A DNA stretch of 64,000 bases from Blastococcus sp. URHD0036. GTDB lineage: Bacteria; Actinomycetota; Actinomycetes; Mycobacteriales; Geodermatophilaceae. The notes under the pieces are model-generated. The model made no database searches and had not been told where the DNA came from. It saw only the letters and a program-made list of their open reading frames with translations. The stretch is from contig NZ_JNIK01000016.1 in NCBI RefSeq assembly GCF_000701365.1, positions 310,001-374,000 on the forward strand, in the 5' to 3' direction. This document shows positions 3,585 to 12,176 of this stretch, piece by piece. Every line of letters starts with the position of its first letter. The stretch's first letter is position 1. Position numbers and translations under genes: made by a program.

Positions 3585-4402
3585 ATGCAGATCACCGGGT
3601 TGACCGGCACGGTCGCCGTCGTCACGGGCGCTGCCCGCATGCGTTCGATCGGACGGGCGATCACGCTGGAGCTGGCCCGAGCGGGCTGCGACGTGGCGAT
3701 CACCGGGACCGACCGGCACCCCGACACGTTCCCCGCCGAGGAGCGCGAGGCCGGCTGGCTCGGTCTGTCGTCGGTCGCGGCGGAGGTCGAGGCGCTGGGT
3801 CGCCGCTGTCTCCCGCTGACCCCCGGCGGCCGGGGAGCGGAGGAGCACGCGGCCCACATGGCCCAGCGGGTGACCGGCGAGCTCGGGAACATCGGGGTGC
3901 TGGTGAACAACGCCGCGGCCTCTCGCGGCGCTGACCGGGTCCCGGTCGTCGACGTGCCCGACGGCGTCTTCGAGTCGGTGGTGGACACCAATCTCAACGG
4001 GGCATTCGCGACGAGCCGGGCCGTGGCGCGGGCGATGGTCTCCGCCGGCCGGGGCGGCAGCATCGTCAACATCTCCTCGATCGGCGGGAAGCTGGCCGCC
4101 GGCCGCACCGCCGCCTATGCCGCGTCCAAGGCAGGACTGCAGGCGCTCACCTCGGCGATGGCGCAGGAACTCGGCCCGGCCGGCATCCGGGTCAACGCCG
4201 TCTGTCCGGGGATCGTCCGGACGTCGCGGCTGGACGACATGTCCGACGAGCGACTGGCCGCCGTCCTGGAGTCCTCGGTCCCGCTGCGCCGTCCGGGGCG
4301 GCCCGAGGACGTCGCGCACCTCGTGGTGTTCCTCAGCAGCGACCAGGGGGCGTGGATCACCGGCCAGGCGATCAACGTCGACGGCGGGCAGCTGACGATC
4401 CG

Positions 4403-4406
<4 letters not shown>
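3585..4406 (+). CDS. SDR family oxidoreductase
   Basis: This is a classical short-chain dehydrogenase/reductase of 273 residues; the substrate is unknown. The Rossmann nucleotide motif is the extended form TGAARMRSIGRAI near residues 13-25. NNAA is at about 106-109, the catalytic Ser is in IVNISSIGG and the Tyr-x3-Lys is YAASK near 181-185. The C-terminal WITGQAINVDGGQ is typical of 3-oxoacyl-ACP-reductase-like members. It has a GAGGGAG ribosome site before the ATG. It overlaps the next gene by four bases (GTGA) and forms a small operon with a second SDR and a cupin protein. This trio is not part of the conserved leuB-cimA neighbourhood, so it looks like an accessory catabolic or modification cassette. 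Confidence 0.88.
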
Positions 4407-5227
<821 letters not shown>

Positions 5228-5249: not shown

Positions 5250-5939
5250 ATGCGCACGGTGACCCCCAGCGAGACCCGGACGGTCGACCGCGGTCACGGG
5301 TACGCGCTGAGCGACTACCTGGGCGACCACACCGATGCCGGCGCGGGCCCCCAGGCCTACCTGGTCCGGCAGGGGACCGCGGAGCTCGGGGCCCACTTCC
5401 ACGAGGTGGACCAGTTCCAGGTCGTCGTCGGCGGCGCGGGGACGCTGGGGCGCGAGCCGGTCGGCCGCGGCGTCCTGCACTACGCCGACGCATACACCGC
5501 CTACGGACCGATCCGGACCGACCCCGCCGTCGGCCTGGAGTACGTGACGCTGCGGCTGGAGCCCACGACGGGCATCAACCCCATGCCGGAGGAGCGGGCG
5601 AAGCGGCGCGCTGCGGGCGGGGGAGGGGAGCACTTCACCTGCGCCCTCGACGGCACCGCGCAGCCGGGCACCCGGGCCCGAGAGCTGGCCCGGACCCGGC
5701 GTGGTGCCCGCGCCCTGGCCCTGCGCCTGCCCCCGGGCGCGACGCCCGAGGCCGAGGGCCTGCCGGCGAGCGGTCGTGGATACGCCGTCGTCCTCGGGGG
5801 AGCGCTGCGCGACGGCGGGCGCGAGCTCCCGGCCGGCAGCGTGCTCGCCCTCGACCGGCCCGGCGAGCTGACCCGGCTGGTGGCCGACGGGACCACCGGC
5901 GCCGAGCTCGCCGTCTGCCTGTTCCCCGAGGCCGGCTGA
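5250..5939 (+). CDS. Cupin-fold protein
   Basis: The 229-residue protein is of unknown function. An N-terminal cupin motif, GAHFHEVDQFQVVVGG at 47-62, supplies the usual His-x-His and Glu metal ligands, although the second cupin motif is weak. Residues from about 140 to 229 look like a second, degenerate cupin barrel (YAVVLGGALRDGGRELPAGS). It starts at an ATG with a GGAGGCAGCG ribosome site, 22 bases after the end of the interrupted SDR, and is presumably cotranscribed with both SDR genes. Bicupins next to SDRs often act on aromatic or keto-acid substrates; I cannot name a substrate here. Confidence 0.75.
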   Translation: MRTVTPSETRTVDRGHGYALSDYLGDHTDAGAGPQAYLVRQGTAELGAHFHEVDQFQVVVGGAGTLGREPVGRGVLHYADAYTAYGPIRTDPAVGLEYVTLRLEPTTGINPMPEERAKRRAAGGGGEHFTCALDGTAQPGTRARELARTRRGARALALRLPPGATPEAEGLPASGRGYAVVLGGALRDGGRELPAGSVLALDRPGELTRLVADGTTGAELAVCLFPEAG

Positions 5940-5971
5940 GCGGCGCGCCGCCTGTGCTTTACTCGGCGGTG

Positions 5972-6004
5972 ATGTCCCGCACCGGCACGATCGCCATTCG
6001 CTAG
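5972..6004 (+). CDS. Putative leader peptide MSRTGTIAIR for cimA attenuation
   Basis: A ten-codon open frame (ATG 5972, TAG 6002-6004) precedes two consecutive hairpins and the cimA gene. It contains two isoleucine codons (ATC, ATT) close to its end. Isoleucine is the end product of the citramalate pathway that cimA starts. The stop codon overlaps the first arm of hairpin one, the arrangement expected if ribosome stalling at the isoleucine codons changes RNA folding. There is no strong ribosome site upstream; GGCGGTG precedes the ATG. The assignment rests on geometry and codon content. Confidence 0.6.
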   Translation: MSRTGTIAIR

Positions 6005-6032
6005 CGCGCAGTCACCTCCTCCGACTGCGCGC
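6004..6032 (+). promoter_or_regulatory. Attenuator hairpin 1 upstream of cimA
   Basis: A perfect 10-base stem (6004-6013, GCGCGCAGTC, with 6023-6032) has the loop ACCTCCTCC. The loop repeats the ACCTCC of the terminator's left arm (6036-6041), so it could pair with the GGGGGGT of the terminator's right arm as a competing fold. The left arm begins at the leader-peptide stop codon. Confidence 0.6.
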
Positions 6033-6060
6033 AGACCTCCCGTACCCGGGGGGTCTTTTT
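6033..6060 (+). terminator. Rho-independent terminator of the cimA attenuator
   Basis: AGACCTCCCG (6033-6042) pairs with CGGGGGGTCT (6047-6056), with one G-T wobble and a 4-base loop. A run of T residues to 6060 follows. It lies 37 bases before the cimA ATG, so it must be bypassed for cimA expression. It is the only hairpin in the window with a clear T tract. Confidence 0.75.
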
Positions 6061-6097
6061 CGTGTCCGGGCCGAATCCACCCTCCGCAGGAGATCCG

Positions 6098-7687
6098 ATG
6101 TCCACCGATCTCGACTTCCACGTCTTCGACACCACCCTGCGCGACGGTGCGCAGCGCGAGGGCGTCAGCTACTCCGTCGCCGACAAGCTCGCCGTGGCGC
6201 GGCTGCTGGACGAGATCGGCGTCGGCTACATCGAGGGCGGCTGGCCGGGGGCGCTGCCCAAGGACACCGAGTTCTTCGCCCGTGCCCGCACCGAACTCAA
6301 GCTGGAGCACGCGCAGCTCGTGGCGTTCGGAGCCACCCGCAAGGCCGGCGTCCGCGTGGAGGACGACCCGCAGGTCGCCGCGCTCCTCGAGGCCCAGACG
6401 CCGGTGGTCTGCCTGGTCGCCAAGTCCGACGTCCGGCACGTGCGCGAGGCGCTGCGGACGACGCTGGAGGAGAACCTCGCGATGGTGGCCGACACCGTCG
6501 CGTACCTGGTCGCGCACGGCCGGCGGGTGTTCCTCGACTGCGAGCACTTCTTCGACGGGTACGCCGCCGACCGCGACTACGGGGTGCGCGTGCTGGAGGC
6601 GGCGTTCGGGGCCGGCGCGGAGGTCGGCGTCCTGTGCGACACCAACGGCGGCATGCTGCCGATGACGGTCGGCCGGGTGGTCGCCGACGTGCGGGCCCGT
6701 ACCGGCGGGAAGCTCGGGATCCACTGCCAGAACGACACCGGCTGCGCGGTGGCCAACACCCTCGCCGCGGTCGAGGCCGGCGTGACGCACGTCCAGGGCA
6801 CCGCGAACGGCTACGGCGAGCGGGCCGGCAACGCCGACACCTTCCAGCTGATCGCGAACCTCGTCACGAAGATGGACCTCCCCGTGGTGCCGGCCGACTG
6901 CCTGCCCGAGCTGCAGCGGGTCAGCCACGCCATCGCCGAGCTCGCCAACATCGCGCCCGACGACCACCAGCCCTTCGTCGGCGCCTCGGCGTTCGCGCAC
7001 AAGGCCGGGCTGCACGCCAGCGCCATCAAGGTCAGCCCCGAGCTCTACAACCACCTCGACCCGGCCGTCGTGGGCAACGACATGCGCATCCTGGTCACCG
7101 AGATGGCCGGCCGCGCCTCGGTGGAGCTCAAGGGCCGCGAGCTCGGCGTCGACCTCGCCGGGCAGGGCGACGCGATCGGCCGCGTGGTCGACCAGGTGAA
7201 GGTGCTGGAGGCCGACGGCTGGTCGTTCGAGGCCGCCGACGCGAGCTTCGAGCTGCTGCTGCGCGCCCAGCTGCCCGACGCGGCGCCGCCGCTGTTCGAG
7301 CTGGAGAGCTACCGCGCCACCGTCGAGCACTGGGGCAACGGCCTGGTGGTCGGCGAGGCCACCGTGAAGGTGCACGTGCCCAACCCCGACGGGACGACGG
7401 AGCGGATCATCTGCACCGCCGAGGGCAACGGCCCGGTGAACGCCCTCGACGTGGCGCTGCGCCAGGCGCTGGTGACCCGCTACCCGCAGCTGGCCGAGGT
7501 CGAGCTCGCCGACTACAAGGTGCGCATCCTCGGCTGGAAGGGCGGCACGAGCGCCCGCACCCGCGTGCTGATCGACACCACCGACGGGGTGGGGGAGTGG
7601 ACCACCGTCGGCGTGCACGACAACGTCGTCGAGGCGAGCTGGCACGCGCTCGTCGACGCGCTCACCTACGCCGTCCGCCACCGCTGA
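6098..7687 (+). CDS. cimA: Citramalate synthase
   Basis: The enzyme condenses acetyl-CoA with pyruvate to (R)-citramalate, the entry of the threonine-independent isoleucine pathway; LeuCD and LeuB then give 2-oxobutyrate. The 529-residue protein has the DRE-TIM barrel start FDTTLRDGAQREG (residues 9-21), the HMG-CoA-lyase-like barrel to about 280 and a C-terminal LeuA-type allosteric domain (about 400-529). The family's second metal motif, usually His-x-His-Asn, reads His209-Cys-Gln-Asn212 here. The ATG at 6098 has an AGGAG site eight bases upstream. Transcription appears controlled by the attenuator at 5972-6060. A related 2-isopropylmalate or homocitrate synthase activity is possible, but length and sequence fit CimA. 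It ends at a 12-base-stem terminator. Confidence 0.92.
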   Translation: MSTDLDFHVFDTTLRDGAQREGVSYSVADKLAVARLLDEIGVGYIEGGWPGALPKDTEFFARARTELKLEHAQLVAFGATRKAGVRVEDDPQVAALLEAQTPVVCLVAKSDVRHVREALRTTLEENLAMVADTVAYLVAHGRRVFLDCEHFFDGYAADRDYGVRVLEAAFGAGAEVGVLCDTNGGMLPMTVGRVVADVRARTGGKLGIHCQNDTGCAVANTLAAVEAGVTHVQGTANGYGERAGNADTFQLIANLVTKMDLPVVPADCLPELQRVSHAIAELANIAPDDHQPFVGASAFAHKAGLHASAIKVSPELYNHLDPAVVGNDMRILVTEMAGRASVELKGRELGVDLAGQGDAIGRVVDQVKVLEADGWSFEAADASFELLLRAQLPDAAPPLFELESYRATVEHWGNGLVVGEATVKVHVPNPDGTTERIICTAEGNGPVNALDVALRQALVTRYPQLAEVELADYKVRILGWKGGTSARTRVLIDTTDGVGEWTTVGVHDNVVEASWHALVDALTYAVRHR

Positions 7688-11805: not shown

Positions 11806-11877
11806 TGGGGTATGGGGTAATTGGCAGCCCGACGGTTTCTGGTTCCGTTAGTCTAGGTTCGAGTCCTGGTACCCCAG
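11806..11877 (+). tRNA. tRNA-Gln (anticodon CTG)
   Basis: A 72-base cloverleaf has acceptor arms TGGGGTA/TACCCCA, anticodon loop TTCTGGT, T arm GGTTCGAGTCC and a G discriminator. No CCA is encoded. The anticodon stem has a T-T mismatch at its loop-proximal pair. Confidence 0.95.
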
Positions 11878-11910
11878 CGAGGAAGCGCCATCTCCTCAGC
11901 ACCACCGCAC

Positions 11911-11983
11911 GGCCCCGTCGTCTAGCGGCCCAGGACGCCGCCCTCTCACGGCGGTAGCGAGGGTTCGAATCCCTTCGGGGCTA
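11911..11983 (+). tRNA. tRNA-Glu (anticodon CTC), copy 1
   Basis: A 73-base tRNA has anticodon loop CTCTCAC between CCGCC/GGCGG arms and T loop GGTTCGAATCC. Acceptor GGCCCCG pairs with CGGGGCT, with a G-T first pair. The cognate synthetase gene gltX is just upstream. Confidence 0.95.
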
Positions 11984-11990
11984 CGCGACC

Positions 11991-12021
11991 GAGAGCCCCC
12001 GACCCACGGTCGGGGGCTCTC
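11991..12021 (+). terminator. Terminator after tRNA-Glu copy 1
   Basis: A perfect 14-base stem (GAGAGCCCCCGACC with its complement) has a 3-base CAC loop. It lies 7 bases after the tRNA. Confidence 0.85.
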
Positions 12022-12096
12022 GCCGTTCCCGGGCCCCGTGGCGCGGCACCCCCAGGTGCGGCGCGCGTCGGTGAGCGTGGCACGATGGCAGTGCAC

Positions 12097-12169
12097 GGCC
12101 CCGTCGTCTAGCGGCCCAGGACGCCGCCCTCTCACGGCGGTAGCGAGGGTTCGAATCCCTTCGGGGCTA
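12097..12169 (+). tRNA. tRNA-Glu (anticodon CTC), copy 2
   Basis: Its sequence is identical to the tRNA-Glu at 11911-11983, including four bases of 5' flank. It lies in the second copy of the tandem repeat. Confidence 0.95.
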
Positions 12170-12176
12170 CGCGTCC

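Follow-up and report, generated by a model that had tools for sequence, protein, structure and literature searches.

The region upstream of the citramalate synthase gene cimA in Blastococcus sp. URHD0036 raises the question of whether a short open reading frame (ORF) and two hairpins place the gene under the control of isoleucine, and how a ribosome on that frame might decide the fate of the transcript. We analysed a stretch of 64,000 nucleotides (the window; all coordinates refer to it, and the features of the element lie on its plus strand). A preliminary description of the sequence had proposed an isoleucine leader-peptide attenuator of cimA. Its leader, Ile codons, hairpins, terminator and control amino acid are upheld by the comparative analysis, but the mutually exclusive pairing that it envisaged is not. 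We consider it highly probable that the element is an isoleucine-responsive, ribosome-mediated transcription attenuator of cimA. As far as comparative sequence evidence can speak, this reading is strongly supported by the conserved ORF, the Ile codons, the fixed spacing, the covarying hairpins, the placement before cimA and the swapped codons in sister leaders.

Architecture of the element in the window

The leader ORF, the first hairpin (H1) and the intrinsic terminator (T) form one stretch at 5972-6060 that is followed by cimA, and our reading of the sequence, the fold and the TIGR00977 match agree with the earlier account of a ten-codon frame with two Ile codons, a perfect 10-bp hairpin at its stop codon and a T-tailed terminator before the gene. 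The leader ORF (5972-6004) encodes MSRTGTIAIR*, with its ATG at 5972 and a TAG stop at 6002-6004; the Ile codons are ATC (5990-5992) and ATT (5996-5998). The G of the stop codon is the first base of the opening pair of H1 (6004-6032), in which the arms GCGCGCAGTC (6004-6013) and GACTGCGCGC (6023-6032) form 10 perfect pairs around the 9-nt loop ACCTCCTCC (6014-6022). T (6033-6060) adjoins H1 without a gap; its arms AGACCTCCCG (6033-6042) and CGGGGGGTCT (6047-6056) form ten pairs around a loop at 6043-6046, and its U-tract runs to 6060. The gene presumed to be regulated, cimA (6098-7687, ATG at 6098), scores 615 bits with TIGR00977 (cut-off 450) and is preceded by a Shine-Dalgarno-like AGGAG at 6088-6092.

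The minimum-energy fold of 5955-6065 (-52.2 kcal/mol, z -4.05) was as low in none of 200 shuffles and consists of H1, T and a weak 5' stem that is missing from the centroid structure. A terminator scan returned 6033-6056 and two overlapping versions, with an expectation of 0.1 terminator-like sites in shuffled sequence. Thus a terminator between the leader ORF and the gene is indicated by the sequence and the fold, as well as by the covariation given below, with termination itself being predicted. No T-box or other Rfam family was found at the element at gathering score, and a run by E-value gave six matches, all far below the cut-off. The T-box of actinobacterial ileS (PMC1262725) would likewise respond to the isoleucine supply; the cimA element differs in having no T-box match.

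An extended -10-like promoter element, TGC-TTTACT (5955-5963), lies 8 nt 5' of the leader ATG, and from this arrangement the leader transcript is predicted to be nearly leaderless. A scan of 5500-6300 for the TTGACA/TATAAT consensus found no promoter. Among 188 parsed leaders (defined below), a TGn-hexamer stands 6-8 nt 5' of the start in 107 and at another spacing in 12, and the strict pattern is unmatched in 69.

Conservation, spacing and covariation

A CimA protein match was found in 111 of the 112 genomes of the family Geodermatophilaceae, in some of them partial or to a remote relative. We took the DNA 5' of 102 cimA places; the cimA motif was found in 101 of them, one of which lies at a contig end, leaving 100 readable loci. 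The element is present 5' of cimA in 96 of these 100, and in each of the 96 an in-frame ORF has its TAG stop at the hairpin's GCGCGC base. The leader peptides include MHTTGTIIIS, MDATRTIIIS and MSTTGTFIIA, and distant members carry MSSLLVIIS. In the four loci without the element (L066, L096, L097 and L100), the end of leuB stands directly 5' of cimA, as judged by eye. Read-through of the leader stop into cimA was considered and rejected, the two frames being unrelated (phases 39, 35 and 22 among the 96 loci).

We built a covariance model, R1, from an alignment of 89 distinct leaders. The window site reaches 118 bits (E 3.8e-28 within the Blastococcus genome) and is itself in the training set; independent support comes from the conservation of the element before cimA in families other than its own. 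R1 has matches in 209 of the 394 class genomes at an E-value of 0.1 or lower. In the same sample cimA is found at E 1e-80 in 310 genomes, and an R1 match occurs in 196 of these and in 13 of the remaining 84 genomes (Fisher P 2e-15, counted per genome with the place of the match unchecked). All 28 returned R1 loci outside the family, which are high-scoring matches, stand just 5' of cimA, as do 79 of 80 further loci picked from the listed R1 matches, the exception (L149) being an ilvB leader; among the inspected high-scoring class matches outside the family, 107 of 108 therefore precede cimA. In a set of named genomes, the best 80 of 590 loci for CimA alignment and including three of the same family, 75 of the 80 carry an R1 match before cimA. 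The carriers include Blastococcus, Modestobacter, Micromonospora, Amycolatopsis, Kutzneria, Thermobifida fusca, Streptomyces, Nonomuraea, Nocardioides, Cellulomonas and others, and the named loci with no match are L250, L258, L267, L279 and L309 (Pseudofrankia).

R1 misses true cases, for 7 of 20 cimA upstream regions from unmatched genomes show an Ile leader by eye. The other 13 show none by eye; they include all six cimA loci of one family (f20) and all four of another (f28), and in the latter cimA stands directly 3' of another gene. That cimA has no such leader in some lineages weighs against the attenuator reading. One might regard the element as the ordinary terminator of the upstream gene, which ends nearby at 5939, accompanied by a chance ORF. 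The probability of this reading is negligible, since the element is kept before cimA in many families despite differing upstream DNA.

We parsed 212 leaders for the ORF, H1 and T by folding and obtained 189, with 14 lost at an interrupted T-run and 9 without an acceptable ORF and hairpin parse. The 189 include the ilvB leader of the Blastococcus genome itself; the remaining 188, used for ribosome masking, for the promoter and codon tallies and for the shuffle comparison, include the ilvB leader L149 and the misparses L210 and L213, leaving 185 clean leaders. The gap between the last Ile codon and H1 is ~5 nt and measures 4-8 nt in 180 of the 185, a figure obtained with an ORF choice that favoured gaps near 5 and 0 nt, which is a mild bias. 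T starts 0-2 nt past H1 in 185 leaders and at 0 nt in 155; this abutment in all parsed cases is partly by construction, because only two-hairpin candidates were kept. Of 3760 dinucleotide-shuffled sequences, 756 had a pair of abutting hairpins of which the second lay at the end, and 165 had such a pair with the 4-8 nt gap before it.

As anticipated in the preliminary description, the Ile codons are conserved in relatives: codon slots -3 and -4 before H1 hold Ile in 168 and 162 of the 185 clean leaders, respectively, and the Ile content of CimA is 2.9%. The lack of conserved Ile codons or hairpins that would have spoken against the preliminary description was thus not observed. End-product codons thus stand just 5' of a regulatory hairpin, as in a leader peptide. 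The stop codon varies in position, lying at the base of H1 in 139 leaders, inside H1 in 46 and before H1 in 2 (n = 187). It is the distance of the Ile codons from H1, and not that of the stop codon, that is kept, in agreement with the prediction of a stalling model. The Ile codon ATT is enriched in the leaders, with 125 of 253 Ile codons versus 25 of 423 in the cimA genes of the class (Fisher P 1e-39, in a tally that includes L149 and misparsed rows) and 22 of 219 versus 2 of 412 in the family (Fisher P 5e-9), and both P values are too small because the sequences are related. This excess might be explained if a more slowly read codon were favoured where isoleucine is sensed. In Streptomyces-type leaders (L174-L181 and L280), H1 is enlarged with inner hairpins, reaching 71 nt in L177, and its base still adjoins the Ile run and the terminator.

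The second anticipated feature, covarying stems, was found in alignment A3, which comprises 88 leaders (82 from other families). In this alignment, which was fitted to the structure under examination and hence favours it, 15 of the 20 pairs of H1 and T changed on both sides; paired cells amount to 96.0%, compared with 81.4% after shuffling and at most 53.2% after sliding, and the covariation score is 0.444 versus 0.172. The lowest pairs of H1 (GCGC; A3 columns 73-77 with 132-136) are practically invariant, three of them at 88/88, and the rest covary. When all column pairs were scanned, the six highest-ranking ones were H1 or T pairs, and such pairs made up 12 of the first 40. The scan revealed no third helix; the remainder is scattered, largely two Ile-codon columns against many partners, and the loop columns are poorly aligned.

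Ribosome position and candidate mechanisms

In a classical trp-type attenuator, the position of the ribosome at the control codons decides termination, and the antiterminator shares a strand with the terminator. The cimA leader has the ribosome-position logic in common with this type, but no strand-sharing antiterminator was detected in it. We folded the 188 leaders with the ribosome-covered RNA removed, in four masked states. The mean probability of H1 was 0.90 with the ribosome stalled at the first Ile codon, 0.44 at the last Ile codon and 0.009 at the stop codon. In contrast, the mean probability of T was 0.93-0.98 in all masked states; it dropped under 0.5 in 7 of 188 leaders when the ribosome was placed at the stop, and in no more than 1 in any other state. 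These folds predict that the ribosome position changes the RNA structure and that H1 is the part that is switched. T forms in every ribosome state; therefore, pairing alone gives no account of antitermination.

The preliminary description had seen the possibility of mutually exclusive pairings between the loop of the first hairpin and the GGGGGGT arm of the terminator. Such a classical antiterminator, in which on stalling the H1 loop pairs with the right arm of T and excludes T, is attractive at first sight: the ACCTCC in the H1 loop of the window repeats the left arm of the terminator, H1 loops are C-rich and G-poor (58% C and 8% G in 188 leaders), the same kind of pairing has been proposed for the Corynebacterium ilvB-II motif (PMC10272879), and the loop:arm duplex energy in the family is sizeable (mean -8.97 kcal/mol). 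However, shuffled loops do almost as well (-8.97 versus -8.44 kcal/mol in the family, -4.05 versus -3.64 kcal/mol in the class, a gain of 0.4-0.5), and the family duplex is no better than with swapped arms (-9.2). Furthermore, H1 loops are 3-5 nt long in 59 of 188 leaders, the covariation scan singles out neither loop-to-arm pairs nor a third helix, and the mean probability of T stays at 0.93 or above under masking; no helix that shares a strand with T and excludes T emerged. We therefore regard this antiterminator as unlikely. As a general mechanism, a loop-to-terminator pseudoknot or antiterminator is rejected on the basis of the shuffled-loop energies and the covariation scan. An extension of H1 into the left arm of T was also sought by eye in several lineages, and no common pairing was seen.

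The edge of a ribosome is taken to lie 12 nt past the first base of its A-site codon. On this assumption, the unpaired RNA between the ribosome edge and T has a median length of 0 nt at the first-Ile stall, with H1 folded, versus 17 nt at the stop codon, with H1 open (n = 187). With the stalled ribosome directly on one side of H1 and T directly on the other, the folding of H1 removes the free RNA between them. For the attenuator the following course may be proposed. A ribosome would start at the probably leaderless 5' end and translate the leader ORF. When isoleucine is replete, the ribosome at the stop codon would cover the 5' arm of H1 and keep H1 open, so that T would form and transcription would end before cimA. 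When isoleucine is short, the ribosome would stall on the Ile codons, H1 would fold ahead of it and, we infer, transcription would read through into cimA. As to how T would fail, we conjecture that the folded H1 brings the stalled ribosome onto the base of T and that T is blocked sterically, with no need for a classical antiterminator; we put this forward tentatively, at somewhat under an even chance.

Another way to use H1 would be mainly as a polymerase pause hairpin that keeps the ribosome and the polymerase in step, the switch then working through the speed of coupling and not through H1 acting on T. Pause hairpins at about 10 nt distance are known in other attenuators, and H1 of the window ends 10 nt 5' of the loop of T. 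By itself, though, pausing leaves unexplained the fixed distance from the Ile run to H1 while the stop codon moves, and we give this reading little credence.

Leaders with other control codons and published systems

The genome of the window carries a second leader of this kind. At an E-value of 10 or lower, R1 has 12 matches there: the cimA leader, an ilvB leader (27 bits) and ten others, of which the five that we read (L105, L106, L108, L110 and L111) look unrelated. The ilvB leader (L104, G000:C15:306326-306444, ~3.6 kb before the window; gene identified by TIGR00118) encodes VPSACQILVVA*, with ILVV as its control codons, and has the same layout of control codons, hairpin and terminator as the cimA leader. 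Elsewhere, the ilvB leaders L149 and L336 carry LVI and ILVL, leuS leaders carry Leu codons (L334, L335 and L337; TIGR00396, which the partial protein of L335 matches below the cut-off), and leuA leaders are found in L326, with LLL (TIGR00973), and in L352. In all five of the leuS and leuA leaders the control codons include the U-ending CTT, a parallel to ATT in the Ile leaders. Seven of 20 further R1 loci that we read are leaders (L326, L327, L334-L337 and L340); the other 13 (L329-L333, L338, L339 and L341-L346) are not recognisable as such and include tRNA or coding stretches. L340 shows a Trp leader, MSATRTWWPAF*, with a hairpin and a terminator before a gene for a chorismate-binding enzyme, whose best hits are to anthranilate synthase component I, well below the cut-offs.

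A scan of the phylum at E 0.001 matched R1 in 25 of 149 genomes, 19 of them outside the class, and we fetched 20 loci from 18 of these 19. Twelve of the 20 have an ilvB motif and one (L352, leader MSQNLLLT*) a leuA motif, and L357 and L367 are Ile-only leaders before cimA (TIGR00977 best hit, partial proteins). L364 has an Ile-only leader, NAVIIIE*, before leuB instead of cimA. In L365, the gene after the match encodes a partial protein whose best hit, NF011645, marks it as isocitrate lyase, and the ORF ends in FVAIA*; this match may be due to chance. L351, L362 and L366 have no known gene within the stretch fetched. The model built on cimA leaders thus retrieves ilvB leaders, with control codons, a short gap, H1 and T, both in and outside the class. 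The exchange of control codons on one scaffold indicates that the control amino acid follows the pathway.

This exchange bears on a further reading, in which a protein or small molecule binds H1 and the Ile codons are incidental. The near-invariant lowest H1 pairs, three of them at 88/88, would fit a binding site, and, according to a study cited in a 2005 paper (PMC1262725), altering codons of the ilvB leader in Streptomyces coelicolor was reported to be without effect. Yet the control codons vary with the regulated gene (Ile for cimA; Ile/Leu/Val for ilvB; Leu for leuS and leuA), and Mycobacterium tuberculosis ilvB1 is reported to need its LVVI codons, a change to AAAA having abolished induction (PMC13236596). 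We judge such binding to be very improbable. For the ribosome-mediated attenuator, the logic of ON at the stall and OFF with the ribosome at the stop agrees with the M. tuberculosis ilvB1 report. More tentative still than the steric block at cimA is the wider suggestion of an actinobacterial attenuator class common to cimA (Ile), ilvB (Ile/Leu/Val), and leuS and leuA (Leu), which would lack an antiterminator helix and use H1 as a strap for the steric block.

Actinobacterial leader attenuators of ilvB, leuS and trp are already known (PMC1262725, PMC8079986, PMC10272879). The ilvB leader attenuator, described for M. tuberculosis ilvB1 (PMC13236596) and predicted elsewhere (PMC1262725), resembles the cimA leader in its short ORF of branched-chain codons, a structure masked at the stop, an intrinsic terminator and a branched-chain gene; the cimA leader differs in its gene and in having Ile as its sole control codon. 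The terminator and anti-terminator of ilvB1 are called mutually exclusive in PMC13236596, whereas our pairing analysis finds no such exclusion in the cimA leaders, a contrast in which ilvB1 is represented by its published description. In the case of the Corynebacterium ilvB-II motif, as presented in PMC10272879, there are likewise two stem-loops, the second followed by U's, and an upstream ORF (uORF) rich in Ile, Leu and Val, but the uORF extends over most of P1, an antiterminator between the P1 loop and the right shoulder of P2 is proposed, and the gene is ilvB. In the cimA leaders, the corresponding complementarity of loop and right shoulder is no more than composition gives. The Streptomyces lividans leaders in Table 4 of PMC8079986 are similar in being leaderless short ORFs before leuS, ilvB and trpE with hairpins and U-rich stretches; that table holds eight leaders, none before cimA, while other Streptomyces have an Ile-Ile cimA leader.

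Literature searches, both aimed at cimA and broader, found no cimA leader in print within a coverage that leaves out most subscription papers; PMC12452182 names citramalate synthases and, in its accessible text, speaks of Bacillota T-boxes only. New here are cimA as the regulated gene, a single control amino acid and a wide distribution, on a known scaffold in which no antiterminator was found. If our reading is true, the citramalate route to isoleucine, which 310 of the 394 sampled class genomes possess, would be under end-product control in most of those lineages, and one leader scaffold would serve with its control codons swapped from gene to gene. The cimA leaders also call into question whether a mutually exclusive antiterminator is needed, as textbooks have it, and they bear on the paradox of Streptomyces ilvB, where the parts of an attenuator are present and codon changes were reported to have no effect.

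Two other features of the window were observed. A short-chain dehydrogenase gene at 4352-5227 has an in-frame TAA at 5072-5074, and the frame beyond it still resembles the C-terminus of such enzymes; either the gene is broken in this genome or the stop is a sequencing error. At 11806-12170, a tRNA-Gln(ctg) gene precedes a pair of tRNA-Glu(ctc) genes whose Rfam scores are equal and which may stem from a tandem duplication.
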